Virus record (IMG/VR): IMGVR_UViG_3300044620_000107
Span: 1-31,778 of that record
Length of the DNA: 31,778 nt
Reading direction: 5' to 3' (one strand)
Source of the DNA: a virus
The notes beneath the pieces are model-generated. The model worked only from the letters and a program-made list of their open reading frames with translations. It did no database searches and had not been told where the DNA came from. Shown in pieces: positions 12,316-30,467 of this stretch. The translations under genes were made by a program, and so were the position numbers. Numbering within the stretch: position 1 is the stretch's first letter; every line of letters begins with the position of its first letter.

Positions 12316-13524
12316 TTACTCCGAAAGACCCTGCGAGGAGGCCCAGGCCGCCCAGCGGCGGTCGGCAGCCCTCTGGCTCAGGTACTGTCCGGCACCCGTC
12401 AGGAGCGACGGCATGGCCCCGGCCACGGGGTTCAGGGCGCGTGCCTGCATGCGCAGGCTGCCGGCGCTGGTCTCTGCCAGCAGTCCCTCGTTCGCCGCGT
12501 TCACGCCCTGCATGCGAGCGGCGTTCGCGGCACGGACGGCATTGGCGTCGATCGTGAAGCGGTCGATCTCCTTCATCAGTTCGATGCTCGCCATGGTCTC
12601 GGCACCGCTTCCGACGTCGGCGCGAATGCCGCGAGCGCCCATCGTGGCGCGAGCCGCCTCCCGCACTTGGCCGGCGCGCATCGTCGCCTCCATCGCCTGC
12701 TGCCTGCCGGCGGCGATGATGTCCGCCGCCTGCCTCTCAGCCGCGCGCGCGTTGATCTGGCTCATCTTGCCCTGGAACTCCAGGGACATGGCTTGCTGCT
12801 TCAGCTGCGTCTGCTGGCTCTTCAGAGCGTAGAACTGTCCGATGACCTGCTGCGTCGTGCCAAGGACGGCAAGGGCAGCGCCCCACGTCATCCCGCTGTC
12901 AGGTGGGGCTTCCTTCTTCGGTTGCGGCGTTACAGCCGAGTCGTTGGGAAACGTGTAACCCTCGCGCCAAGGGCCGGGCTTGCTGCCCTCCAGCATCACT
13001 CCTGGCATCTCCAGGCCGGCGGGGTCTTGCAGCGCCACAGGGGCTTCCATCGGAGACTGCTCGGCGACGACCTCTGGAGCGGCCACAGGAGGCTCAGAGC
13101 CAGCCGGAAGGACACCAGCGTCCTGCACGCTAACCATCTCGACCAGCGCAGGATCTTGCGCCTTCAGCATGCCGGCGGCGTCTACCTGCTTCATGTCGGA
13201 GAACGGGCGCGGCGGCGGCTCGTAGGCGTACCGCTTGGCGGCCTCGACGCGCAGCGCGCCCTGCCGGCGAGCGCGCTCCACGCTCGCGTCTGCCAAGTCC
13301 TGCCGGAACATCTGCAACTGCCGATCGGCTGGCCCCACCTTGGCTGCCGGCGGCAGCCCGTAACCGCTGCGCATCACCTCGGGGGCAACGTAGTCGCGAA
13401 CGTGACGAAGAGCCTGCCGCTCTGCCGTCAACGGGTCGATGCCTCGGCCGATCAGCTGCTGCTTCATCAGCCCGGCCTCCCGGCGAAGCCGCAACTCGAT
13501 CATCGCTTGCGTGAGTGGGTCCAT
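12316..13524 (-). CDS. Internal virion protein, gp14-like, with long N-terminal extension (402 aa)
   Basis: The C-terminal half (about 215-400) has the Ala/Gln/Arg-rich helices typical of podophage gp14-like internal proteins: AALAVLGTTQQVIGQFYALK, then helices ending in ARGIRADVGSGAETMASIEL and TIDANAVRAANAARMQGVNA. Such proteins are ejected first and form the outer-membrane part of the genome-delivery channel. The N-terminal 210 residues are different: a helical, Arg-rich start, then a Pro/Glu-rich probably disordered linker (about 100-210). ATG 13524 overlaps the stop of tail tubular protein B (TGATG) and has GGAGG three bases upstream, a good start. The family is usually shorter (around 200 aa, from memory), so the extension may be a fused, independent unit. 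Confidence 0.75.
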   Translation of the reverse strand: MDPLTQAMIELRLRREAGLMKQQLIGRGIDPLTAERQALRHVRDYVAPEVMRSGYGLPPAAKVGPADRQLQMFRQDLADASVERARRQGALRVEAAKRYAYEPPPRPFSDMKQVDAAGMLKAQDPALVEMVSVQDAGVLPAGSEPPVAAPEVVAEQSPMEAPVALQDPAGLEMPGVMLEGSKPGPWREGYTFPNDSAVTPQPKKEAPPDSGMTWGAALAVLGTTQQVIGQFYALKSQQTQLKQQAMSLEFQGKMSQINARAAERQAADIIAAGRQQAMEATMRAGQVREAARATMGARGIRADVGSGAETMASIELMKEIDRFTIDANAVRAANAARMQGVNAANEGLLAETSAGSLRMQARALNPVAGAMPSLLTGAGQYLSQRAADRRWAAWASSQGLSE

Positions 13525-16500
13525 CAGCCTCCGATCGCGACCTCGTAGGTCATGCCAAGGATCGTCATGGGGTATGGCGTCCTGTGGCGGATCGTCACTT
13601 GACCACTATTCCGCCAGGATCCCAGAAGCGTCACGTCGATCTCCTGCATGTCTGTGCTCTGCGCAGATGCCGGCGGATTGCCAGGGACCAGCAGAGAGCC
13701 GGTCGGCCCGATCGACACCTTGCTCGCGGACGACACCTTGAGCCATGCCTTGTTGATGTTCTTGGCCCGGCCCTGGCCCATGCCGTCGATCTGCATCGCA
13801 GCGGGGACAGTCACGATCTCGCTCGTGTACTTGATGCCGACGACTGCCGTGGCCGCGATCGGCCGCACGGTGCCGTCCAGAGAGATCTGCCCGTTCTCGA
13901 CGGTCAGGTTCTCCAGCAGGATGCCGTCTGCGACGACGTCGACCGTCAGACCCTCCAGGTGCTCCAGTTGCGTGATCGTGCTGAAGCCGATGTACACGTT
14001 GCCGGCCGCCGGCAGCTGCGTGTAGGCAGCGCCCCACGTCCCCACCGGGGACAACGTGAACGAGTTGGCGTTGTTGTAGGTCGCGATGCCGATCAGGATC
14101 GGACCAGCCGGCGACCCGACCTGCACGACCACAGTCGTTGGCGAGACGTAGCCGTGGTTGGCGTAGGCAATCACCAGCGACTCCGGCGACCCCTTGGCGT
14201 AGGTGCCAAGTTTCTGCTGGAGCAGCGCGCCGTCGCAGTAGATCGATTCGGGTGCGACATCCTGGTTGAGCGGGGCCATGCGCTCGACCGTTCGGATGGT
14301 CGACGCGCCAACCGTCCTGCGCACAACGGCCCACAGCCGGTCCTGCTGCCCGTCTGGGATCACCGCCACCGACTCAACCACACCGCCGACGTCGTGCTGG
14401 TGCCAACCTCCGACCTGCTCCTCGGGAACGTAGGTCAGGCCGAGCAGCTTGCCGCTCGTGCTCACGAACCAGAGCACGGGGACAGGCGACTTCTGATAGG
14501 CGGCGTCGACGATGCTGTAGTCGTCGAACAGGTGCGGCGCGCGCAAGCTCAGGTCGCCCGTCACGAATCCCTGCGACTGGAAGTTGAACCCCAACTCGCG
14601 AACGTGCCCACCGCGCGCAGCGCAGAAGATCGCGCTGTTGTTGACGATGATCGGCTGGACGGCGTTCGCGCCGTTGTAGCTTTGCGGCCGCACGCTGATC
14701 GTGCTCGGGGTCAGAGCCTCGCTGTTGATCGGGCTGACGCGCCACTCGCTGGCGTTGGTCAGCAGCAGCAACTCGCCAAGCGGGACGATGTGTCGGATCC
14801 TGTTGGCCTCGCGGGCGGCGACCTCGACCTCGATCCGGTCGGAGTCGTTGCTCGGGAGCCGGTACGAGAACTCCGTCTCGGTGAACGGCTTCGACATGTA
14901 CAGCTTGTTCGGCTCGTCGAGCGCGCCGGCAAAGCACTTGCGCTGGTCGAAGTACGCAACGGCACCGGGGTACAGCCCCGCCGCGTTGAACACCGACTCG
15001 ACGTATGGCGGCGTCTTGCTGAAGTCGGGTGTGATGTTGTCGTCGACGAAGCTCGTCGTCTCGCTGTTGCCGATGAAGCCGAACAGCCCGCTGACCTCCT
15101 TGTAGACGTTGTACCGAGTCGCGCCAGGAACAGCCGACCACGTCAGCGTGTTCTTGCTGCCGATCGCCAGGAGGTTGTTGGTCGCAGTGACAGATGCAGA
15201 CGCTGGGCCTTCTGCGTCGTCGATCTCTGCCGTCACTCGGTACGTCGCGAGCGCGTCCTGCACGCTGGTCACGAACTGCAACAGCCCGCACCTGCCGAGC
15301 GCGTACTCCGGCGCGCGAGGCTCGTAGTGCCCAAATGCCTCCGACGTCGTGGACACGCTGCGGCCGTTCACGAGCACGGCAAATGCTACCAAGATTGGAG
15401 CAACCAAGCCGCCAGTAAGTTGACCACCATCGTCCCGGAGCAAGCGGAACCGCTTCGTGGTTGCGAAGCTCGGGTCGAGATCCAAGTACGCAATCGCGCC
15501 GAGCGGTATTGCGGCAGTTGAGTTGGAGTCGCAGATGCGAACGCCGGTTCCGTTCCTCCACCACGAAGCCGACTCGTACTCCAGAGTGTCCAGCTGGAAC
15601 GGGTAGGTGTTCGTGCCCGTCGTCTTGGTCGCTCCGATCCGCTGGTAGACGTAGCCCTCGTCCTCCAGGCGTTGCAGGTAGGCGACGTCCTCGGACCACA
15701 GGCCGCCGAATGCGTTGCCGAGGTTCGATCCGTTCAAGATGGTGTTGGTGTTCACCATCTGGCTCGTCTGCGACGGCTCGGATGCGACCACGAAGAACTT
15801 GTCGTGCAGCAGCGGGAAGTGGTCGCAGCGGCAGTACACCAAGTCCCCCTTGCTGAACTTGTGCTGCGACGGGCCGACGACGTTGATCCAGTGCCGGTCC
15901 ATGCCGCTCACGGGCGCGTCGCTGTTGGCCCAGTCCCATCGCCATGCCATGCCGTAGGTCGGCGTTGCCGTCACTCCTGTGACCTGCGGCGTCGTGTTGA
16001 ACACGGAAGCCGTCAGAGACCACGCAGTCGCGCCAAAGCGTGAAAGCTCGCGCACCGGGTGATTCGGGTGCGCAAAGGAGACGACGTCGAAGCTCTGCGT
16101 GTACGTCAGGTCGAAGATCTCCGACTCCAGGTAGCTGTGCTTCAACTCCAGGGCCGTCGAGTACTGCTGGAACCACAGAGCGTCGAGGCTGGTCGAGGTG
16201 ATCAACCCCAGGCCGGCGCTGCTGTAGATCGGAACCGTCGCAAGGTAGTTGGCACCGCTGTACGTCACGACGGAGCCGACGTCGTAGAACTTGTCGACGG
16301 TGTTCGTCCCCGTGCCGGCGGTCGTGAAGGCGATGCGCGAACCAGTCGGCGACGCCTTGAGGAAGAACCCAGTGCCAGCAGTTGGGATGTCGTAGTCGAC
16401 GTAGTACAGCGTGTTCGGCGACAGCTGCGGCGGAAGCGCCCCGCCCGTGTTGCGGAAACACACCGCTTCGTCCTGCGCAAACGGCGGCGTGGCCGGCGGC

Positions 16501-16931
16501 GTGCCCGTCCACGATGCCGACGAGACGCGCAGCTGGCTGCTGACACCGCTGAACGTCACCGTCGTGCCAGGGATGTACGTCGTCGGCGTCGCGTGCTGAA
16601 GCAAGCCGCTCGGCAAGTGGAACCGCATCGTGCCGAAGCGCGCGGTCTGGTTCACTCCATCCCACGCGCGAAGCTCGATGACCAGAGCCTGATCGACCGA
16701 GAACTGGAACGGGATCAGGCGGCTCTTGGTCGTGCGTGGATCGCCAGCACCTCGGGATGTGTTCGCGCGGAACTCAAACCCAGGACGCTTGACGAGTACG
16801 CCCTGCGGTCGCAGCACCCAGTTGTTGATCCTGGCCGCGCCGTTCTGGTACTTGACGTCGTCGATCCGGCCGAACATCTCCGGCGAGATCTCGCCGCCCG
16901 AGAAGCCCTTCTGGTAGATGCGCGTGTTCAT
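13524..16931 (-). CDS. Tail tubular protein B, gp12-like (1135 aa)
   Basis: Nozzle protein of the short tail. The N-terminus MNTRIYQKGFSGGEISPEMF, followed by the NWVLRPQGVLVKRPGF motif, is the hallmark of podophage gp12/tail tubular B proteins; LIPFQFSVDQALVIE and the later DQRKCFAGALDEPNKLYMSK region fit as well. A fibronectin-III-like unit (LTWSAVPGATRYNVYKEV, about residues 597-640) is inserted before the latter. At 1135 aa it is clearly longer than T7 gp12 (794 aa); the excess lies in the beta-rich segment about 115-300 and near the C-terminus. ATG 16931 overlaps the stop of tail tubular A as ATGA; an in-frame upstream GTG at 16946 is less likely. It acts with tail tubular A below the portal. 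Confidence 0.9.
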   Translation of the reverse strand: MNTRIYQKGFSGGEISPEMFGRIDDVKYQNGAARINNWVLRPQGVLVKRPGFEFRANTSRGAGDPRTTKSRLIPFQFSVDQALVIELRAWDGVNQTARFGTMRFHLPSGLLQHATPTTYIPGTTVTFSGVSSQLRVSSASWTGTPPATPPFAQDEAVCFRNTGGALPPQLSPNTLYYVDYDIPTAGTGFFLKASPTGSRIAFTTAGTGTNTVDKFYDVGSVVTYSGANYLATVPIYSSAGLGLITSTSLDALWFQQYSTALELKHSYLESEIFDLTYTQSFDVVSFAHPNHPVRELSRFGATAWSLTASVFNTTPQVTGVTATPTYGMAWRWDWANSDAPVSGMDRHWINVVGPSQHKFSKGDLVYCRCDHFPLLHDKFFVVASEPSQTSQMVNTNTILNGSNLGNAFGGLWSEDVAYLQRLEDEGYVYQRIGATKTTGTNTYPFQLDTLEYESASWWRNGTGVRICDSNSTAAIPLGAIAYLDLDPSFATTKRFRLLRDDGGQLTGGLVAPILVAFAVLVNGRSVSTTSEAFGHYEPRAPEYALGRCGLLQFVTSVQDALATYRVTAEIDDAEGPASASVTATNNLLAIGSKNTLTWSAVPGATRYNVYKEVSGLFGFIGNSETTSFVDDNITPDFSKTPPYVESVFNAAGLYPGAVAYFDQRKCFAGALDEPNKLYMSKPFTETEFSYRLPSNDSDRIEVEVAAREANRIRHIVPLGELLLLTNASEWRVSPINSEALTPSTISVRPQSYNGANAVQPIIVNNSAIFCAARGGHVRELGFNFQSQGFVTGDLSLRAPHLFDDYSIVDAAYQKSPVPVLWFVSTSGKLLGLTYVPEEQVGGWHQHDVGGVVESVAVIPDGQQDRLWAVVRRTVGASTIRTVERMAPLNQDVAPESIYCDGALLQQKLGTYAKGSPESLVIAYANHGYVSPTTVVVQVGSPAGPILIGIATYNNANSFTLSPVGTWGAAYTQLPAAGNVYIGFSTITQLEHLEGLTVDVVADGILLENLTVENGQISLDGTVRPIAATAVVGIKYTSEIVTVPAAMQIDGMGQGRAKNINKAWLKVSSASKVSIGPTGSLLVPGNPPASAQSTDMQEIDVTLLGSWRNSGQVTIRHRTPYPMTILGMTYEVAIGG

Positions 16932-17554
16932 CGACCGCTGATCCACGGCGCGGTGTGGCTCGTGTCCGTCCGACGCTGATTCGCGTCGCTGGCAGCCGCC
17001 TTACCGATGTAGAACTGCACCATCTGCAAACAGCGCTTGGCCTCGGCAGCGCCGACGTCGCCCTTCAGGATCGGGCCGGCGAGCTTGCTCGCCAACATCC
17101 ACGACAGCGACGTGATGAACAGCGGCGGGTAGTAGCCCGGCGTGTACACGAACTTGGTGTACCGAAGCTCGGCGTCCTCGACGTCGGTGTACAGCACCAT
17201 CGAGCCTGCTGCGTTCTGCTCGATCGTGTACTCGTATGGCTCGCGCGTCGTCTGATCGACGTAGCGGTCCTTCATGCCTTCAGGAATGACCTGCAAGGTC
17301 TTCAGCACGGACGGCGGGTAGACGTAGCTGTAGCCCCAGCCATCGACTTCGTTCGACGGCGTCGTCGTCAGAGCCACGCGCGCGGTCGCGAACGACCACG
17401 CATGCATCTCCAGCAGTTCGTCGACCGCTCGGTTGTAGAACTGGACGCACAGCAGCGACTGCGCAGATCCGTCGGGAGGGGAGATGCTCTGCACAGCCGC
17501 CGACTCGCCGATGTGCGCCAGTGCAAGGTTGCAAATGTCCAGTGCGGTGACCAC
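16928..17554 (-). other. Possible internal in-frame start yielding free tail tubular protein A (208 aa)
   Basis: GTG at 17554 sits exactly where a stand-alone tail tubular protein A would begin, giving MVTALDICNLALAHIG, the usual N-terminus of the family, with GAGG about eight bases upstream. The resulting 208 aa matches normal family length. The window could therefore yield both the depolymerase fusion and free tail protein. The sequence shows the codon and the possible ribosome site; use of this start is inference. Confidence 0.4.
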
Positions 17555-19315
17555 GCAGCGTCCCTCGACGAAGATGTTGTACGGTGCCCAGTGCTGTAAG
17601 AAGAACGACTCGTAGTTGCGGGGAGTGACAAGCGTCCCTGCGATGACGACGTCGTTGAACGTGATGTCGTGCGGCGTGTTGAGCCGGTCGCGACCGATGA
17701 TGCGCGACATCCGAGCAGGGACATGCGTCGTCGTCAGCCCATCAAACAAGAAGGAACTGATCGATCCGGCCTTGTCGGCAGAGATGAGCGTCCCGCCGAG
17801 AGACTGCGACAGGAACGGGTAGTACGCATTCTCCAGCGTCAGAAGAGCCTGCGGGATTGGTCCGTCCACAAGGCAGTCCCTGACGACGACGTTGTGCCTT
17901 CCCCATCCAGCAGGATCATTGTCCGATCCATCAACCCATGTCTTCAGAATGCTGCTGGTGAGCGAAGCGGGTGCGCTGTACCCAACGAACGGTTGGTAGG
18001 CTCCAGCCTGCGCGCCAGTGTACAGATCCCCGCCCCCATCTCCCTCCAGGCCGAAGTGCGTGAACGTACAGCCTTCGACCAGCGTGGACGGCGTGTACGT
18101 TGTCGCCGCAGATGACGGCAGGTTGAAGTAGCTGAAGACGATGTTGGCGGCTTGCGTGTTGATGACGTAGGTGTCCGTCACCGTCGTCACTCCATCGTTA
18201 CCTGCCAACACGAGTCCGTCGTCGCCCGCCATGATGAAGCAGCGGTCGATCGTCCTCGTCGGAATGGACGCATTGTTGACTGACAACCCCATGCCGTCGC
18301 AGTTGTAGAACCACGGGGTGACAACCTTCACCAACGAGCAGCTGCTGATCCCTTCGCCGAACGTGTAGAACGGGCCGCCGACGATTGTGACGTCCTGCAT
18401 CGACATGGATGGGAACGACGAGTCGCCACCATCGCCTCCGAAGCGGCCAACAACCATGCTGAACGTCAGCTGCTCCTCAAACGTCAACGGCTGCCCAGGA
18501 TTGATGTGGACGTTGCCTGCTCCTTGGACCTTGGATGCCCAGTCGGCGTCGCTGCACCACTCGCCACTCAGCACGCCAGGGCCGCGAATCACCACGTCGT
18601 TCGACTGCCGCAAGTCCAGCGAGCCGACGACCCACGCTCCACGCTCCAGCCAGATCTCGGTGTACGGGCCGACGCGCCACAACGTCGACGCGAACTCTCG
18701 CGTGGCGACAGTCGGAAGCGCAGTCGTGACCGACCCGGCCGTCGTCGGAAGTGTGTGGATGCCGGCGGGGAACTTCAGGATCGCAGGGCTGCCTACGGTT
18801 CCCAAAGGTGCCCCCGACGCCATGGTGCCGGCGTTGAACGTCACGGCACCGACGGGCGTCGTGGCGGCGATCGGGTCGCTCCACACCATGACCGGATACC
18901 GCGAGTCGCCGTTCGCGACGATGTACAGCTTCGCCCCTGCGGGGACCGTGAGCGTCAGCTGGTTGCCGGACACGATCGGGCTGACCGAAGCCGTCGACGG
19001 TCTGATCGTGTAGCTCGTGATCGCAGCGCTGTACTGCAAGCGCACCGTCCTGGACGCTGAGTCACTGCCGAAGCTCGTCCACGACATCTCGGCCTGCTGA
19101 CCATTCGCCCACTGCGTCGTGGTCATCCCGCTCGCTCGCGTGAACCCGTAGACGTGGTTCGCCTGCAAGACGTTCGCGTCGTCTGAGACGGAGCAGAGCC
19201 ACCGAGTGCTGCCTCGATCGTTGGCGTAAGCGGGGCCGCCGTTCGGCGTTCCAGTGGGACCGAGATCTCGCTGTAGTGGCATGGGATCGCCGAAACGCAG
19301 GCAGAGCCTGACCAC
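16928..19315 (-). CDS. Beta-helix polysaccharide depolymerase fused to tail tubular protein A (795 aa)
   Basis: A single frame without stops encodes two recognisable proteins. Residues about 70-190 form a beta-sandwich like the N-domain of GH49 (AEMSWTSF, then SYTIRPSTASV). Residues about 190-585 look like a right-handed beta-helix of the GH49/GH28 type, with IWLERGAWVVGSLDL, VVIRGPGVLSGEW, NCDGMGLSVNN and IMAGDDGLVLAGNDG; the Asp residues of the last two are candidate catalytic acids. Residues 588-795 are a full-length tail tubular protein A (VTALDICNLALAHIGES, PPDGSAQS, ELLEMHAWSFA). The enzyme would cut a capsular or envelope polysaccharide and the other half attaches below the portal. The start is uncertain: GTG 19315 is the longest, ATG 19282 an alternative, and neither has a good Shine-Dalgarno. 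Confidence 0.85.
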   Translation of the reverse strand: MVRLCLRFGDPMPLQRDLGPTGTPNGGPAYANDRGSTRWLCSVSDDANVLQANHVYGFTRASGMTTTQWANGQQAEMSWTSFGSDSASRTVRLQYSAAITSYTIRPSTASVSPIVSGNQLTLTVPAGAKLYIVANGDSRYPVMVWSDPIAATTPVGAVTFNAGTMASGAPLGTVGSPAILKFPAGIHTLPTTAGSVTTALPTVATREFASTLWRVGPYTEIWLERGAWVVGSLDLRQSNDVVIRGPGVLSGEWCSDADWASKVQGAGNVHINPGQPLTFEEQLTFSMVVGRFGGDGGDSSFPSMSMQDVTIVGGPFYTFGEGISSCSLVKVVTPWFYNCDGMGLSVNNASIPTRTIDRCFIMAGDDGLVLAGNDGVTTVTDTYVINTQAANIVFSYFNLPSSAATTYTPSTLVEGCTFTHFGLEGDGGGDLYTGAQAGAYQPFVGYSAPASLTSSILKTWVDGSDNDPAGWGRHNVVVRDCLVDGPIPQALLTLENAYYPFLSQSLGGTLISADKAGSISSFLFDGLTTTHVPARMSRIIGRDRLNTPHDITFNDVVIAGTLVTPRNYESFFLQHWAPYNIFVEGRCVVTALDICNLALAHIGESAAVQSISPPDGSAQSLLCVQFYNRAVDELLEMHAWSFATARVALTTTPSNEVDGWGYSYVYPPSVLKTLQVIPEGMKDRYVDQTTREPYEYTIEQNAAGSMVLYTDVEDAELRYTKFVYTPGYYPPLFITSLSWMLASKLAGPILKGDVGAAEAKRCLQMVQFYIGKAAASDANQRRTDTSHTAPWISGR

Positions 19316-19388
19316 TCTGCCTGCATGCCCCTCAACTCGTCCTCGTCTGCCTGTCGCGACGCCGGTCAGAGCGTCACGACCGCGATGC

Positions 19389-19942: not shown

Positions 19943-20944
19943 TCAGGCCGGGACCACGGTCTCGGTGTTGTCGATGGCGTCGCAGCAACGGATCGGCACG
20001 CCCAGGAACGTCAGCCACGACTGCGGCTGCCCGAACTGCGTCATCGACTGCTGGATGTTGAGCACGCCGTTGCTCCGATCCATCGCCTGAAGGGCGAGGC
20101 CGGTGTGCGCGGCGCGGTTCATGTAGAACACGGGGCGACCCATGTTCTGGTTCGGCAGCTTGTACAGCGCTCGCAGCATCAGCTTGATCAGGAGCGTGGT
20201 CGCGTTGGCCCCCTGCGAACCGTTCTGACCACCGAGGTCGGCGACCGGCAGGTTGCAGATGCGCACGACGTAGCGCCAGTCCTTGTTGACCAGCCCGCCC
20301 TTCCACTGGTAGCGCGTGGAGAGCGCCTGCATGCGGTTGACACCGTCGTAGACGGTCTGCTCGCCGAGATCCTCGTGGACGAGGCCGGCCTTGCTGCCCT
20401 TCGGGAACGGGCAGTACAACGTGTTCTCGCCCCAGCAGGCGAGCCACACCGACGTGCCGGCCGAAGTCGTCGCGCGGATGACGTTCTCGCCCACCGTGCC
20501 CGACGCCGTGGAGTAGCGAGCCGTGAGGCCCAGGAACTCCTGCGGAGCCGTCTGCGGGTTGCCGTAGAACAGCGTCCGCGCCCAGCGCTGGTTCATGGCC
20601 TCCAGGAACGCCACGTCCTCGGACAGCCGGAACTGCGAGGTGTTGCCGTTCAGCATCGCGAGATCCTTGTCGATCTCCGAGCGCGCCTCCAGGATGGCGC
20701 ACGCCTCGTCGACCTGCGTGGTCGTCGACTTGCTGTTCGGGATGCCCTGGTTCAGGGCGCGGTAGTACACGTCCGGCAGGCCCGTGCGGATGACGACGCG
20801 CTCGCCCGTCGGGAGGTTGCCCTCCTTCCAGACGGCGTCTTGCAGGATCTCGTTGCGCTGGCTCAGAAGCTCCGCGATCACCGGCGTGTTGCCGTTCGGA
20901 TCGGTTCGCTTCGCCCAGTCGAGCAGGGTCAGTCGAAAGCTCAT
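19943..20944 (-). CDS. Major capsid protein (333 aa)
   Basis: The protein matches the BPP-1-type podophage capsid family: N-terminal RLTLLDWAKRTDPNGN, VIRTGLPDVYYRALNQGIPN, EDVAFLEAMNQRWARTLFYG, a DWRYVVRICN segment and GRPVFYMNRAAHTGLALQAM near the end. It forms the HK97-fold shell. No N-terminal prodomain is evident, in line with a separate scaffold gene immediately upstream and a separate cement protein immediately downstream. ATG 20944 lies 10 bases after the scaffold stop; the Shine-Dalgarno is weak (AAGTGAGA), which is odd for what should be the most abundant product and suggests coupling to scaffold translation. Confidence 0.92.
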   Translation of the reverse strand: MSFRLTLLDWAKRTDPNGNTPVIAELLSQRNEILQDAVWKEGNLPTGERVVIRTGLPDVYYRALNQGIPNSKSTTTQVDEACAILEARSEIDKDLAMLNGNTSQFRLSEDVAFLEAMNQRWARTLFYGNPQTAPQEFLGLTARYSTASGTVGENVIRATTSAGTSVWLACWGENTLYCPFPKGSKAGLVHEDLGEQTVYDGVNRMQALSTRYQWKGGLVNKDWRYVVRICNLPVADLGGQNGSQGANATTLLIKLMLRALYKLPNQNMGRPVFYMNRAAHTGLALQAMDRSNGVLNIQQSMTQFGQPQSWLTFLGVPIRCCDAIDNTETVVPA

Positions 20945-21921: not shown

Positions 21922-22083
21922 CTAACCAGCGCGCAAGGTCTCAAGGTCGGCAGCGATCTGCGCCATCTCGGCGTCGATCTGCTCGATGCGGCCGACGTCA
22001 CCGAGGCGCAGTGCGCAGGTGCGCTGCGTGCCCAGGTTGACCAGCGCGGCCTCGTACAGCTCGATGCGTTGGGCGGTGTCCAT
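21922..22083 (-). CDS. Small helical protein (53 aa)
   Basis: ATG 22083 overlaps the stop of the Kelch-like gene (TGATG), and the 53-residue product MDTAQRIELYEAALVNLGTQ onward is Leu/Ala/Glu-rich and probably a single helical hairpin with coiled-coil character (GRIEQIDAEMAQIAADLETL). Small helical proteins of this sort are common between head genes of podophages, but I do not recognise a named family. Codon third positions are strongly G/C like its neighbours, supporting it as a real gene. Function unknown. Confidence 0.65.
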   Translation of the reverse strand: MDTAQRIELYEAALVNLGTQRTCALRLGDVGRIEQIDAEMAQIAADLETLRAG

Positions 22084-23513
22084 CAGATCACCATCTGGCG
22101 CAGGTGGATTGCCGCCGTGTTGTGCACCATGTGGACGTAGAAGATCTCCGTCGCGCCGTCCTTGTAGATCACGTCGAACGCTGTGTCGCCGACGATCGCC
22201 GCGCCCTGCGGGTACAGCATCGTCGACCACGGGAACATCTCAGACCGGGTGAAGTCGTACGCGAACCAGCGGCCCGTCGCGTCCTTCTGGATGTAGAGCC
22301 GGTCGCCGTGGTACGCGTACTTCGTGCCAGTCGTCAGCGTCTCCGTGTTTGGCGAGTAGGTGATCGTCGCCCAGGTGTTCGCCGCGATGTCGTAGCGGTG
22401 CAGGGCCGCCGTGCCCGCGCCCTGGAACGAGTAGATGTACCGCCCGTTCAGGATTGCTGACTCGCCTGTCCAGTCGCTTTCGGTCGCGCTGTGTACCCAG
22501 TGCGCGCTCATGCCCGCGCCAGGAGCCGCCGCACGCGCCGCACCGGGCGACAACGTGCTCCAGGTGTTCGCCGTGATGTCGTAGCGGTACAGCGTGACCG
22601 CGTTGTTGCCGAGGTAGTACAGGAAGTTGTCGTTGCCCTCGATCGCGTAGACGCTGGTCGCGTCCGGCGTCGTGGTCCACGTTGCAACGGTCAGCGTGTC
22701 GGCGGTGTTTGCCGTGATCGTGCGGATCTGGCCCGCGCCGGTGCCTCCGGTGATTCGCACCTGCGAGTTGATCCACTGGCTGGCCGTCCAGGTCTTGCCC
22801 GTCTGCACGAGCGTCGTGGCTGTCGCGCTCGTCGCGGTGCCGGTGGCGAACTGCTTGAAGTCGCCGTCCACGATCGACGGCGTGGCTACCAGCTTGCCGT
22901 CGGTGCCGAGCGACGCCGCGAGTCCCGCCTGCGCAAGCGTCGTGTAGGTGTTCGTGGCGTAGTCGTAGACGCGGAAGCTGCCGGAGGCGAGCGTGCCACC
23001 AGTCAGCAGATACCATCGCGGTGTCAGCAGGCGGTACACCGTCGAGGCCGAGAACGCGCTCGCCTGCGTCGCTACCGTGATCACCGCCGTCGCGCCCACC
23101 GTGTTGCGCACGATGTCGAGCACCGCACCGTTGTTCGGACCCGACAAGATGTGGATCTTGTAGCCGCGCAGGTCACGCGCCAGCGTCTGGTTGGTCGTGA
23201 TCGTGCTCGTCGTGCCCGCCGTCGCAGTGAGCGACGCTGCGCCCACCGTCGAACCCGTAGACCATGCGCTAGCCACCGCCGCCGCGCCCGCTGCCAGCGC
23301 GGGAGTCAGTGCCGGGGACGCAAGCAGCACCCATCCGTCCTCGCTCGGGTTGTAGATGTACGCCTCCGTCGCGCTGCGGAGGAAGAACTGCTGCTGCCGG
23401 AAGTGCCGCGACGAGGCGATGCACGATGCGGCGGCGGTGGCGACTGGAGCGGGGGCGCAGAACTCCCACCGCTTCATGTCGAGGATCTTGCGATTGCCGT
23501 TCGTTGTTGCCAT
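22083..23513 (-). CDS. Kelch-like virion structural protein (476 aa)
   Basis: Repeats of the Kelch/beta-propeller type are visible: VYDYATNTYTTLAQAG, LYRYDITANTWSTLSPGAA and LHRYDIAANTWATITYSPN. Between them sit two copies of a roughly 70-residue Thr-rich unit (about residues 97-167 and 225-295) with shared elements such as NGAVLDIVRNTVGATAVITV and GAGQIRTITANTADTLTVAT. The N-terminus (MATTNGNRKILDMKRWEFCA) resembles structural proteins found between portal and capsid genes in related podophages. Likely exposed on head or tail. It starts 3 bases after the preceding stop. The exact position in the particle cannot be deduced. Confidence 0.75.
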   Translation of the reverse strand: MATTNGNRKILDMKRWEFCAPAPVATAAASCIASSRHFRQQQFFLRSATEAYIYNPSEDGWVLLASPALTPALAAGAAAVASAWSTGSTVGAASLTATAGTTSTITTNQTLARDLRGYKIHILSGPNNGAVLDIVRNTVGATAVITVATQASAFSASTVYRLLTPRWYLLTGGTLASGSFRVYDYATNTYTTLAQAGLAASLGTDGKLVATPSIVDGDFKQFATGTATSATATTLVQTGKTWTASQWINSQVRITGGTGAGQIRTITANTADTLTVATWTTTPDATSVYAIEGNDNFLYYLGNNAVTLYRYDITANTWSTLSPGAARAAAPGAGMSAHWVHSATESDWTGESAILNGRYIYSFQGAGTAALHRYDIAANTWATITYSPNTETLTTGTKYAYHGDRLYIQKDATGRWFAYDFTRSEMFPWSTMLYPQGAAIVGDTAFDVIYKDGATEIFYVHMVHNTAAIHLRQMVI

Positions 23514-29367: not shown

Positions 29368-30138
29368 CTAGACGTACTGGAGGTAGATGTCGCCGTCAGC
29401 GCCGCCGGTTGGCGCTGCGGTGCCGCTGGTGATGGTCAGCGTCGCCGCGTTGCCGAGGCCGAGCGTCGTGCGCTGCGCGGCTGCGCTGGCGTCGTCGAGC
29501 AGGTCGCGGCCCGCCTGCGTGCAGGCGATCGTCTCGGGCACTCCGGTGCTCGGAGACTGGCGACCGATCAGCGTGTCGGTGGCGAGGTTGGCGAGCTTCG
29601 CCAGCGTGACCGCGCCCGTGGAGATCGTCGTGGTGCTGCTGCCTGCTGCGGCCTCGACGTCGCCGAGCAGCTGGCTACGCCGGATGCCGCTACCGCTGAA
29701 CTCGACACCGTGGCCGACGGTGACCTCCTGCGCTGGGCCGGCGCTGCCGCTGTGGCGACCGATCAGGTGCTGCGAGGTGACGTCGACGATGTCGCTCCAC
29801 TGCGCCTGGGACAGCGTGGCGAGCGCGCCGAGGCCGAGCGCTGTGCGCTGTGCTGCGGCGTCCGCTGCGGTCAGCAGCGTCTTGCCGGCGGTGGTGACGT
29901 CGCCGCCCATCTTGGTCGTCGTGACCGCTCCCGCGTCGATCGAGAACGACGTTGCGTTGCTTGCGACGGTGATATCGCCCTTGTCGCCGTCGCCGAGGCC
30001 GCGCACGACGAGATCCCAGTGCAGCGTCCACTGCGCGCCGACGCCCGGCTCGGAGACGGAGCCGCTGGTGTGGTCGACGAGCGCGACGTAGCTGCTGCCG
30101 AGGTGCTCGACGACCTGTCCGCGCAGGTAGTTCGTCAC
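29368..30138 (-). CDS. Tail-fibre protein (256 aa)
   Basis: N-terminal YLRGQVVEHLGSSYVALVDH followed by TSGSVSEPGVGAQW resembles the small carbohydrate-binding-like module found in phage fibres. The rest is beta-rich with two copies of a classic fibre repeat, AAQRTALGLGALATL and AAQRTTLGLGNAATL, plus HLIGRHSGSAGPAQEV and TLIGRQSPSTGVPETI as a second repeated unit. The end, PTGGADGDIYLQYV, is also common in fibres. It likely contacts the host surface. GTG 30138 overlaps the preceding TGA (GTGA) and has GGGAG seven bases upstream; the open frame above it is a shadow. The N-terminal module appears to be split from the previous gene. Confidence 0.75.
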   Translation of the reverse strand: MTNYLRGQVVEHLGSSYVALVDHTSGSVSEPGVGAQWTLHWDLVVRGLGDGDKGDITVASNATSFSIDAGAVTTTKMGGDVTTAGKTLLTAADAAAQRTALGLGALATLSQAQWSDIVDVTSQHLIGRHSGSAGPAQEVTVGHGVEFSGSGIRRSQLLGDVEAAAGSSTTTISTGAVTLAKLANLATDTLIGRQSPSTGVPETIACTQAGRDLLDDASAAAQRTTLGLGNAATLTITSGTAAPTGGADGDIYLQYV

Positions 30139-30467
30139 GACCACGCTCCCTGGGTCGGCGTGAGGAACACGCCGGCCGGCACGGTGCCGCCCCACTCGCC
30201 GGCCCACTGGAGCAGGCCGCCGCCGCCGCCGCCCGTGACGGACAGCGTGCCGTCGGTGTAGGTCAGGCCGGTGCCGATCGCCGCGCGGCCGTAGCGACCG
30301 GACAGGTCGATCGTCGACAGCCAGACGGGCGTCTGGTCCTGGATGGCGTCGACGGTCGGGTCGATCCTGCGGATCTCCTCAACGACGTGGGTGAGATCCT
30401 GCACGACGGGATCGCGCGACGGCATGGCGCGCGCCGCGCCGGCCGCGCTGCGACTGGGGGATGCCAT
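30135..30467 (-). CDS. Short fibre-like protein, probable N-terminal part of the tail fibre (110 aa)
   Basis: A helical N-terminal part (VVQDLTHVVEEIRRIDPTVD) is followed by AIGTGLTYTDGTLSVTGGGG, a beta/Gly pattern typical of fibres, and the end LLQWAGEWGGTVPAGVFLTP leading to QGAWS. That last part looks like the beginning of the Trp-containing module continued in the next gene. ATG 30467 has AGGAG 18 bases upstream with a GC-rich hairpin between them; an internal ATG 30425 is an alternative start. This is the first gene of the leftward train. Confidence 0.6.
   Translation of the reverse strand: MASPSRSAAGAARAMPSRDPVVQDLTHVVEEIRRIDPTVDAIQDQTPVWLSTIDLSGRYGRAAIGTGLTYTDGTLSVTGGGGGGLLQWAGEWGGTVPAGVFLTPTQGAWS

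Follow-up and report, generated by a model that had tools for sequence, protein, structure and literature searches.

A tail adaptor gene fused to a predicted beta-helix domain

The window, by which we mean the whole linear virus record IMGVR_UViG_3300044620_000107 of 31,778 bases, carries on its minus strand a gene in which a large N-terminal domain, GH49-like by its predicted fold, is joined in frame to a complete tail adaptor (tail tubular protein A, TTA). The frame is free of stop codons over 795 codons, from a GTG at 19315 to the stop at 16928, and its parts are the following (AF2: AlphaFold2).

16928..19315, minus strand: fused gene, N-terminal GH49-like domain plus tail adaptor (TTA); open frame, 795 aa, about 85 kDa
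17555..19315, minus strand: N-terminal enzyme-like part, residues 1-587, about 62 kDa; from the AF2 model and Foldseek
18851..19054, minus strand: predicted N-terminal beta-sandwich-like region, about residues 88-155, low confidence; from AF2 strands, with boundary and name estimated
17555..18850, minus strand: predicted right-handed beta-helix, about residues 156-587; from VIA-align, model range 145-582 in ATG numbering
18293..18301, minus strand: CDG motif, residues 339-341
18215..18226, minus strand: GDDG acidic motif, residues 364-367
16928..17554, minus strand: tail adaptor (tail tubular protein A) domain, residues 588-795 plus stop; from phrog_394 and 8ck1_E

An earlier note on this DNA had claimed that an enzyme frame runs without a stop into a complete TTA, and this was confirmed: the frame is open, phrog_394 covers the adaptor domain, and the same frame is present in two other IMG/VR records (G001 and G002) with 99% identity to the window. 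The window differs from them at 21 bases, with no indel and no stop in frame; G001 and G002 are identical to each other across the fused frame and thus provide one independent comparison only. The GC content at third codon positions was 0.68-0.90 along the frame and 0.82-0.85 near the junction. It is very improbable that an artefact of assembly or sequencing masks a stop or a frameshift here. The codon preceding the GTG at 17554 is indeed one base from a stop, but a search for a missed base or hidden stop near the junction found the same codons in G001 and G002, despite the 21 base differences elsewhere, and the other fused sequences described below share the architecture. With the same frame and no indels in both records, a sequencing error was rejected, and the in-frame fusion of 16928-19315 is real.

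Comparing the window with G001, we counted 10 synonymous and 8 non-synonymous differences in the enzyme part (ratio of non-synonymous to synonymous rates about 0.27, binomial p 0.005) and 3 synonymous and no non-synonymous differences in the TTA part (p 0.014). Because non-synonymous differences fall below their opportunity in each, both parts look to be under purifying selection.

The adaptor assignment is supported by both sequence and predicted structure. Residues 588-795 matched phrog_394 with an E-value of 1.1e-39 over profile positions 3-188 of 190, and phmmer aligned the domain with the Carin1 connector 8ck1_E (E 7e-18). Foldseek recovered the same chain (2.7e-11) together with T7 gp11 and KP32 TTPA, and VIA-align superimposed 188 residues on 8ck1_E (Z 19.9, rmsd 2.9). 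Residue 588, encoded by the GTG at 17554, aligns with the methionine start of the free TTA in six named phage records, of which one (L009) has one extra residue and another (L010) is unannotated, its start having been chosen by us.

The N-terminal part was characterized by its predicted fold. It matched no family in Pfam or NCBIfam at E <= 10 and none in PHROGs, and a GH28 (PF00295) profile search of the window record (G000) gave no match. Sequence comparison with the PDB stayed at chance level (hexokinase E 0.53; monellin E 0.8 with a two-row profile), tblastn in INPHARED returned nothing at E <= 10, and peptide patterns, which detect close relatives only, yielded no confirmed relative in GTDB genomes. 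The AF2 model of the whole open reading frame (ORF), built from 26 alignment rows, shows a GH49/GH28-like helix and an adaptor fold at a low to middling mean predicted local distance difference test (pLDDT) of 56.6, with most adaptor blocks at 76-92, the helix region widely at 30-80 and the first 75 residues below 50. The first non-adaptor PDB matches in Foldseek were isopullulanase (3wwg, 4e-6; 1wmr, 6e-5) and the dextranase Dex49A (1ogm, 2e-4), all with a probability of 0.99-1.00. In VIA-align, applied to the same chains, the beta-helix (mostly model residues 145-582) matched polygalacturonase 1bhe (Z 18.0, rmsd 3.8, 297 aligned), the Sf6 tailspike 2vbe (Z 16.9, rmsd 3.8, 288 aligned) and isopullulanase 3wwg (Z 14.8, rmsd 4.5, 311 aligned). 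The model thus matches the GH49-type fold of a beta-helix with a beta-sandwich, a fold common to GH28 enzymes and tailspikes. Hence the beta-helix of GH49/GH28 likeness that the earlier note had proposed agrees with the prediction. We call the domain GH49-like rather than a member of GH49 because it has no sequence-family match, and the predicted fold does not settle between GH49 and GH28.

Catalytic aspartates are a hallmark of GH49. In the only other GH49-type lineage that we found (L036/L095, 32% identity over this part), both D of GDDG are conserved, but L036 lacks the Asp of CDG; conservation thus extends to one of the two acidic motifs pointed out before. It is unlikely, in our estimate, that the beta-helix is non-enzymatic and serves a binding or structural role as a receptor-binding domain or neck decoration. 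A part with no sequence family and an unconserved CDG Asp would suit such a role, and in phage Carin1 the slot from cement to connector gene (L324 3820-5782) is occupied by a head-spike base gene and a gene for a 384-aa hypothetical protein. Against it stand the top fold matches, which are mostly GH49- and GH28-type hydrolases, the retained DD pair, and the finding that sister phages carry in its place an esterase whose motifs are conserved.

Recurrence of the fusion and its partners

IMG/VR was scanned with adaptor alignments and with fusion or N-terminal parts, and seven named phage loci were added. The resulting 264 loci were reduced to 189 distinct adaptors, the seven named loci included, by merging those with identical last 500 nt of the TTA; pieces of the window, G001 and G002 and whole-record pieces (L003-L005, L163-L175) are outside these counts. 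An adaptor was called fused when more than 40 open codons lay upstream of it, and the fused cases had 140 or more. By this measure, 15 of the 189 distinct sampled TTA sequences, one of them the window's near-copy, are fused at the same site; each adaptor scan covers the 80 best among more than 550 relatives, so the fraction is not a population frequency. The 174 unfused sequences include two that are cut by a contig end and may be of either state (L107, L258). By name, there are 20 fused contigs besides the window, and each frame was checked singly.

Grouped at about 80% adaptor identity, the fused sequences form nine lineages: window/G001/G002; L036/L095; L040/L034; L021; L212-L219 with L225; L084/L099; L017; L178/L132; and L179. 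Two of these sequences, L017 and L132, are truncated by contig ends. There are two unrelated types of fusion partner, the GH49-like helix in the first two lineages and a SASA/SGNH esterase in the other seven. None of the seven named phage loci, taken from tblastn matches, is fused, and whole-fusion tblastn against INPHARED gave no matching record with 80% query coverage (0 of 106 for the window, 0 of 84 for L040, 0 of 78 for L084 and 0 of 92 for L036); other fusion partners were looked for in INPHARED only within the seven loci. Among GTDB genome contigs, 0 of 41 adaptor loci were fused, the longest upstream open frame being 79 codons, and the last viral scan brought no fused contigs beyond L036 and L095, which had already been found. 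Betaproteobacteria supply most of the closest adaptors from cellular genomes, and any host named on this basis would be a guess.

The SASA family (PF03629) scored above the Pfam cut-off in L021, L034, L040, L132, L178, L179 and L212 and below it in L084 (E 0.009); the contig-end fragment L017 gave no match and was assigned to this type because it resembles L084. The motifs GQSN, QGExD and DxxH, of which GQSN (Ser) and DxxH (Asp/His) are SGNH esterase motifs, occur in each of the 10 SASA-type rows that extend to the N-terminus. The AF2 model of the L040 fusion matched SGNH esterases in Foldseek at 1e-5; in VIA-align, the best match was the cyanophage Pan3 tailspike (Z 20.3, rmsd 3.4, 247 aligned), with esterases at Z 17-20 and the N4 tail at 13.1.

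The SASA domain is split in L040, L034, L178, L179, L084, L212 and L021, with GQSN near the N-terminus and the remainder adjoining the adaptor. About 410 to 1100 residues separate GQSN from QGE in these parts, and the L040 model places many strands there. At residues 521-559 of this model, the last esterase helix continues into the first adaptor helix, with a pLDDT of 51-57 at the junction; such a continuous helix would, if the model is right, couple enzyme and ring rigidly.

The fusion also shows in the spacing of the surrounding genes, which we measured from the match to the capsid gene.

19943..20944, minus strand: major capsid protein, anchor for the slot length; PF20911, E 5e-114

The distance from the capsid match to the adaptor was 642-1296 bp in all 152 distinct unfused loci with the capsid in view and 2288-4252 bp in all 13 such fused loci; 22 of the 174 unfused loci have no capsid match in view. 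Within the few kb on each side that the unfused loci cover, tblastn at E 1e-4 found no match to the enzyme parts of L040, L178, L084, L212, L021 and L036, and the enzyme part of the window, compared with 92 loci, matched only its near-copies and L036. Outside the close relatives there are exceptions: the slot contains a separate ORF of 442 codons (Gly_rich_2) in a Rhodobacteraceae locus (L296), an ORF of 270 codons in locus L305 and, in Carin1, the two genes mentioned above. Because of these three, the statement that no separate large gene occupies the slot is limited to the 152 unfused loci. By analogy with Carin1, the slot may be a place for virion surface parts.

For the adaptor tree, 190 rows were thinned to 104 with all fused rows retained. 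All 16 fused TTAs, the window included, fell on one side of one branch with weak support (ultrafast bootstrap 82, SH-like approximate likelihood ratio test 19), and the fused set together with the unfused L254 was supported at 99/90; the branches of the window and L036 are long, and the tree program warned of this. Judged from these sequences, a single origin of the fusion followed by exchange of the enzyme fits best, with multiple origins still conceivable. Nozzle lengths overlap between the two groups (900-1140 aa in 13 fused; median 897 and range 681-1082 in 117 unfused).

Start sites at the junction and neighbouring genes

The earlier note had further proposed that the GTG within the frame could give the free tail protein, so that one gene would make two products. 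Three features bear on the starts.

19313..19333, minus strand: likely start of the fused gene, GTG 19315 with GAGGGG (19333-19328) 12 nt upstream; from Shine-Dalgarno (SD)-like energy
17552..17566, minus strand: internal GTG (17554-17552) at the ancestral TTA start with GAGGGA (17566-17561); from the alignment and a duplex energy of -6.4
19297..19324, no strand assigned: perfect 10-bp inverted repeat with an 8-nt loop over the GTG start; from an inverted-repeat scan

The SD-like duplex energy was -7.4 for GTG 19315 compared to -2.1 for the in-frame ATG at 19282, and of 11 fused rows tested, 8 have a value of -5.9 or lower at the first start of the gene, the weaker ones being L036, L095 and L178. 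Free adaptor genes, scored for 170 of the 174 unfused starts, begin with ATG in 156 cases and have a median energy of -10.2, which is stronger than any junction; as a background, 7.1% of 8242 in-frame positions reach -6.

A mixed ring, in which fusion from GTG 19315 and free TTA from GTG 17554 are combined, for example as six plus six to match the six-fold nozzle, is an arrangement to which we attach a low likelihood. In its favour, the internal GTG of the window sits at the ancestral TTA start behind GAGGGA. Five fused groups keep a start codon there, the other four being L036 (ATG, -2.4), L021 (ATG, -6.5), L212 (ATG, -3.1) and L178 (GTG, -7.3), and three of the five (window, L021, L178) lie at -6 or lower, more than the background would give (binomial 0.003). 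However, L040, L034, L179, L132, L084 and L017 have no start codon at the site, the ATG of L036 and L212 comes without an SD, and the free TTA median exceeds every junction in strength. Moreover, L132 has the same energy as L178 (-7.3) without a start codon at the site, so SD-like stretches need not mean initiation. Around the site, L040 and L034 lack any ATG, GTG or TTG from -10 to +20 codons; in L084, L132 and L017 a GTG precedes the conserved core by 1-2 codons, and the core of L179 contains a TTG, so that a slightly shifted TTA start is conceivable in these four. Thus the two-product proposal fits the window, and perhaps L021 and L178, and is not supported by the six rows without a start codon or by L036 and L212. 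As far as these sequences tell, some lineages may produce a free adaptor, but this cannot hold for all of them: since several fused relatives lack a start codon or an SD at the site, it is the fusion and not the product pair that is conserved.

The inverted repeat of the window overlaps GTG 19315, and its T-rich tail has only four T in eight; it might mask the start or serve as an attenuator. Our scan detected a terminator-like hairpin followed by a T-rich tail at the fused-gene start in 12 of 13 fused loci, several of which are near-copies, and before the junction in none of 9; by the same scan, a hairpin precedes the adaptor in 39 of 169 unfused loci compared to 4 of 169 shuffles.

The structural gene order of the window is that of Bordetella phage BPP-1. 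A family search identified the head-tail connector (PF12236), capsid (PF20911), nozzle (phrog_376), an internal virion protein (phrog_418) and an endolysin-like protein (phrog_1044); terminase, acetyltransferase, scaffold region and a giant protein were named by position and by eye only. The gene directly downstream of the fusion encodes the nozzle.

13524..16931, minus strand: nozzle (tail tubular protein B) gene; ATG 16931 overlaps the TTA stop (ATGA); phrog_376 E 6e-157, frame from GTG 16946

With 1140 codons from GTG 16946, the nozzle protein is long; its residues 219-245 match CBM_5_12 below the threshold, and weak matches of this kind occur in the nozzles of G003 and G005 and not in those of G004 and G008. 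Between the connector and scaffold genes lies a Kelch-type beta-propeller protein (22083-23513), and G005 encodes a 477-aa protein with weak Kelch matches whose N-terminus is near-identical to it. A fibre-like gene at 29368-30207 has weak matches to DUF5907, CBM_5_12 and tail-fibre PHROGs and is possibly a second host-contact protein. In G003 (41 kb), no separate tailspike was recognised among the listed ORFs of at least 150 aa, only some of which were searched. The end of G002 (L171 7543-10656) holds a 1037-aa ORF with Phage-tail_3 and Rcc01698_C domains on a podovirus contig; these domains are typical of siphophage and gene transfer agent-like tails, and this end is perhaps a chimeric assembly.

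Proposed arrangement at the virion neck and known systems

We propose that the fused gene yields one polypeptide whose C-terminal 208 residues would be an adaptor of the T7 gp11 / BPP-1 Bbp14 kind and whose N-terminal 587 residues would be a GH49-like polysaccharide hydrolase. The adaptor is present in twelve copies in known virions. Assembly of its ring on the portal would therefore set up to twelve enzyme domains around the virion neck, close to or level with the fibre-docking site of other podoviruses, and the enzymes would cut host surface polysaccharide during the approach of the particle. The adaptor of this phage lineage would be the anchor for an exchangeable surface-sugar enzyme, either a GH49-like helix or a SASA/SGNH acetylesterase.

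The expected position follows from relatives. The T7 account (PMC6702177) describes the adaptor as a twelve-fold ring whose alpha1-alpha2 loop contacts the nozzle, with fibres docking between adaptor and nozzle; for this reason, by analogy, the N-terminus of the adaptor probably faces the capsid side. The same account places the closure of the channel at the nozzle, and 'adaptor' fits this ring better than the 'gatekeeper' of the earlier note. Fibres are attached to the adaptor in SU10 and P-SCSP1u as well (PMC9509320, PMC10575957). Because of the fibre docking in these three phages and the probable direction of the N-terminus, an N-terminally fused domain would be placed around the neck, close to the height at which fibres usually sit. 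A similar task for the adaptor-borne enzymes is suggested by Klebsiella prophages, in which beta-helix and SGNH proteins are the two leading enzyme classes predicting capsule specificity, with six each (PMC13123978).

Covalent display of the enzyme by the adaptor subunits is, in our judgement, the probable arrangement, and it overlaps with the mixed-ring, cleavage and non-enzyme readings. In its favour count the open frame in the window, G001 and G002, the adaptor identity, the GH49 and GH28 fold matches, the recurrence at one site, the conserved SGNH motifs with their spike and esterase fold matches, the slot lengths, the weakly supported single branch of the fused TTAs, the missing start codons in several relatives, the hairpin ahead of the enzyme instead of the TTA, and the enzyme classes of the Klebsiella prophages. 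For the wider claim that a dodecameric adaptor carries an exchangeable enzyme (GH49-like hydrolase or SGNH acetylesterase) N-terminally on every subunit, and that the whole lineage swaps enzymes as others swap tailspike heads, we see about even chances. Several observations speak against covalent display. Besides the single independent comparison for the frame, the missing sequence family and the unconserved CDG Asp, both models have low to middling mean pLDDT values (59.4 for the L040 fusion), and VIA-align ranks GH28 enzymes and tailspikes above GH49. With the nearby GTGs of L084, L132 and L017 and SD-like stretches in three lineages, a free TTA is still conceivable, and, given the fibre-like gene at 29368-30207, receptor binding may depend mainly on a part other than the enzyme. 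In addition, twelve 62-kDa domains, and about twice that mass in L021, would crowd the neck.

Crowding would favour cutting, and BPP-1 and Jess A annotate head-region proteases. It is nevertheless doubtful that a phage or host protease cuts the fusion after synthesis, with the TTA joining the ring and the enzyme being released or held non-covalently: the junction sequences, compared by eye, share no common motif across lineages, and the helix of the L040 model runs unbroken from esterase into adaptor.

Depolymerases and deacetylases have been described as parts of spikes and fibres. If covalent display is true, a structural ring of fixed copy number without a docking interface would be another rule of anchoring; it would explain the use of free, non-spike-type enzymes without a trimeric spike and make the adaptor an exchange platform for host-range parts. 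For annotation, such genes are easily labelled just 'tail protein', because only the last 200 residues have a family.

Adaptors, GH49/GH28 folds, SGNH phage enzymes and adaptor folds within longer chains are already known. In the titles and abstract openings of open-licence PMC papers, we found no description of a surface-sugar enzyme fused N-terminally to an adaptor, and the view that the adaptor is an unusual place to anchor such an enzyme stands. Residues 588-795 align end to end with the Bbp14-type adaptor of BPP-1 and match the folds of T7 gp11, KP32 TTPA and Carin1 8ck1, all of which are free proteins of about 190-226 aa that start at the equivalent of residue 588. KP32 TTPA is likewise an adaptor reported to act on capsular polysaccharide, as a 'dual-function' tail protein; in that report (PMC5440376), the claimed activity lies inside the 192-residue adaptor itself, whereas in the window a separate 587-residue domain is added.

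Among the long adaptor-fold proteins in BFVD, those of Vibrio phages VP2 (Q6RCF4, 741 aa) and JSF9 (504 aa) are named Ig-like, unlike the enzyme-like part of the window; two others (A0A516LMG1_2, 761 aa; A0A516LTA4, 1084 aa) may be fusions of the window kind. In phrog_9239 (741 positions), the adaptor match lies near the N-terminal start, the opposite order to the window.

The GH49 isopullulanases and dextranase (3wwg, 1wmr, 1ogm) are free fungal enzymes, whereas the similarly folded domain predicted here lies within a phage tail protein. The SGNH fold of the sister fusions is also that of the Pan3 tailspike (9vyh), the N4 tail (9lc0) and Klebsiella prophage fibres (PMC13123978); those enzymes sit in spikes, fibres and other tail proteins, whereas here the domain is N-terminal to the adaptor. 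Finally, the beta-helix tailspikes of Sf6, HK620 and Klebsiella and Acinetobacter phages share the predicted fold of the window domain and likely its job, but they are encoded by a separate gene with an N-terminal tail-binding domain, whereas in the window the anchor is C-terminal and is the adaptor itself.

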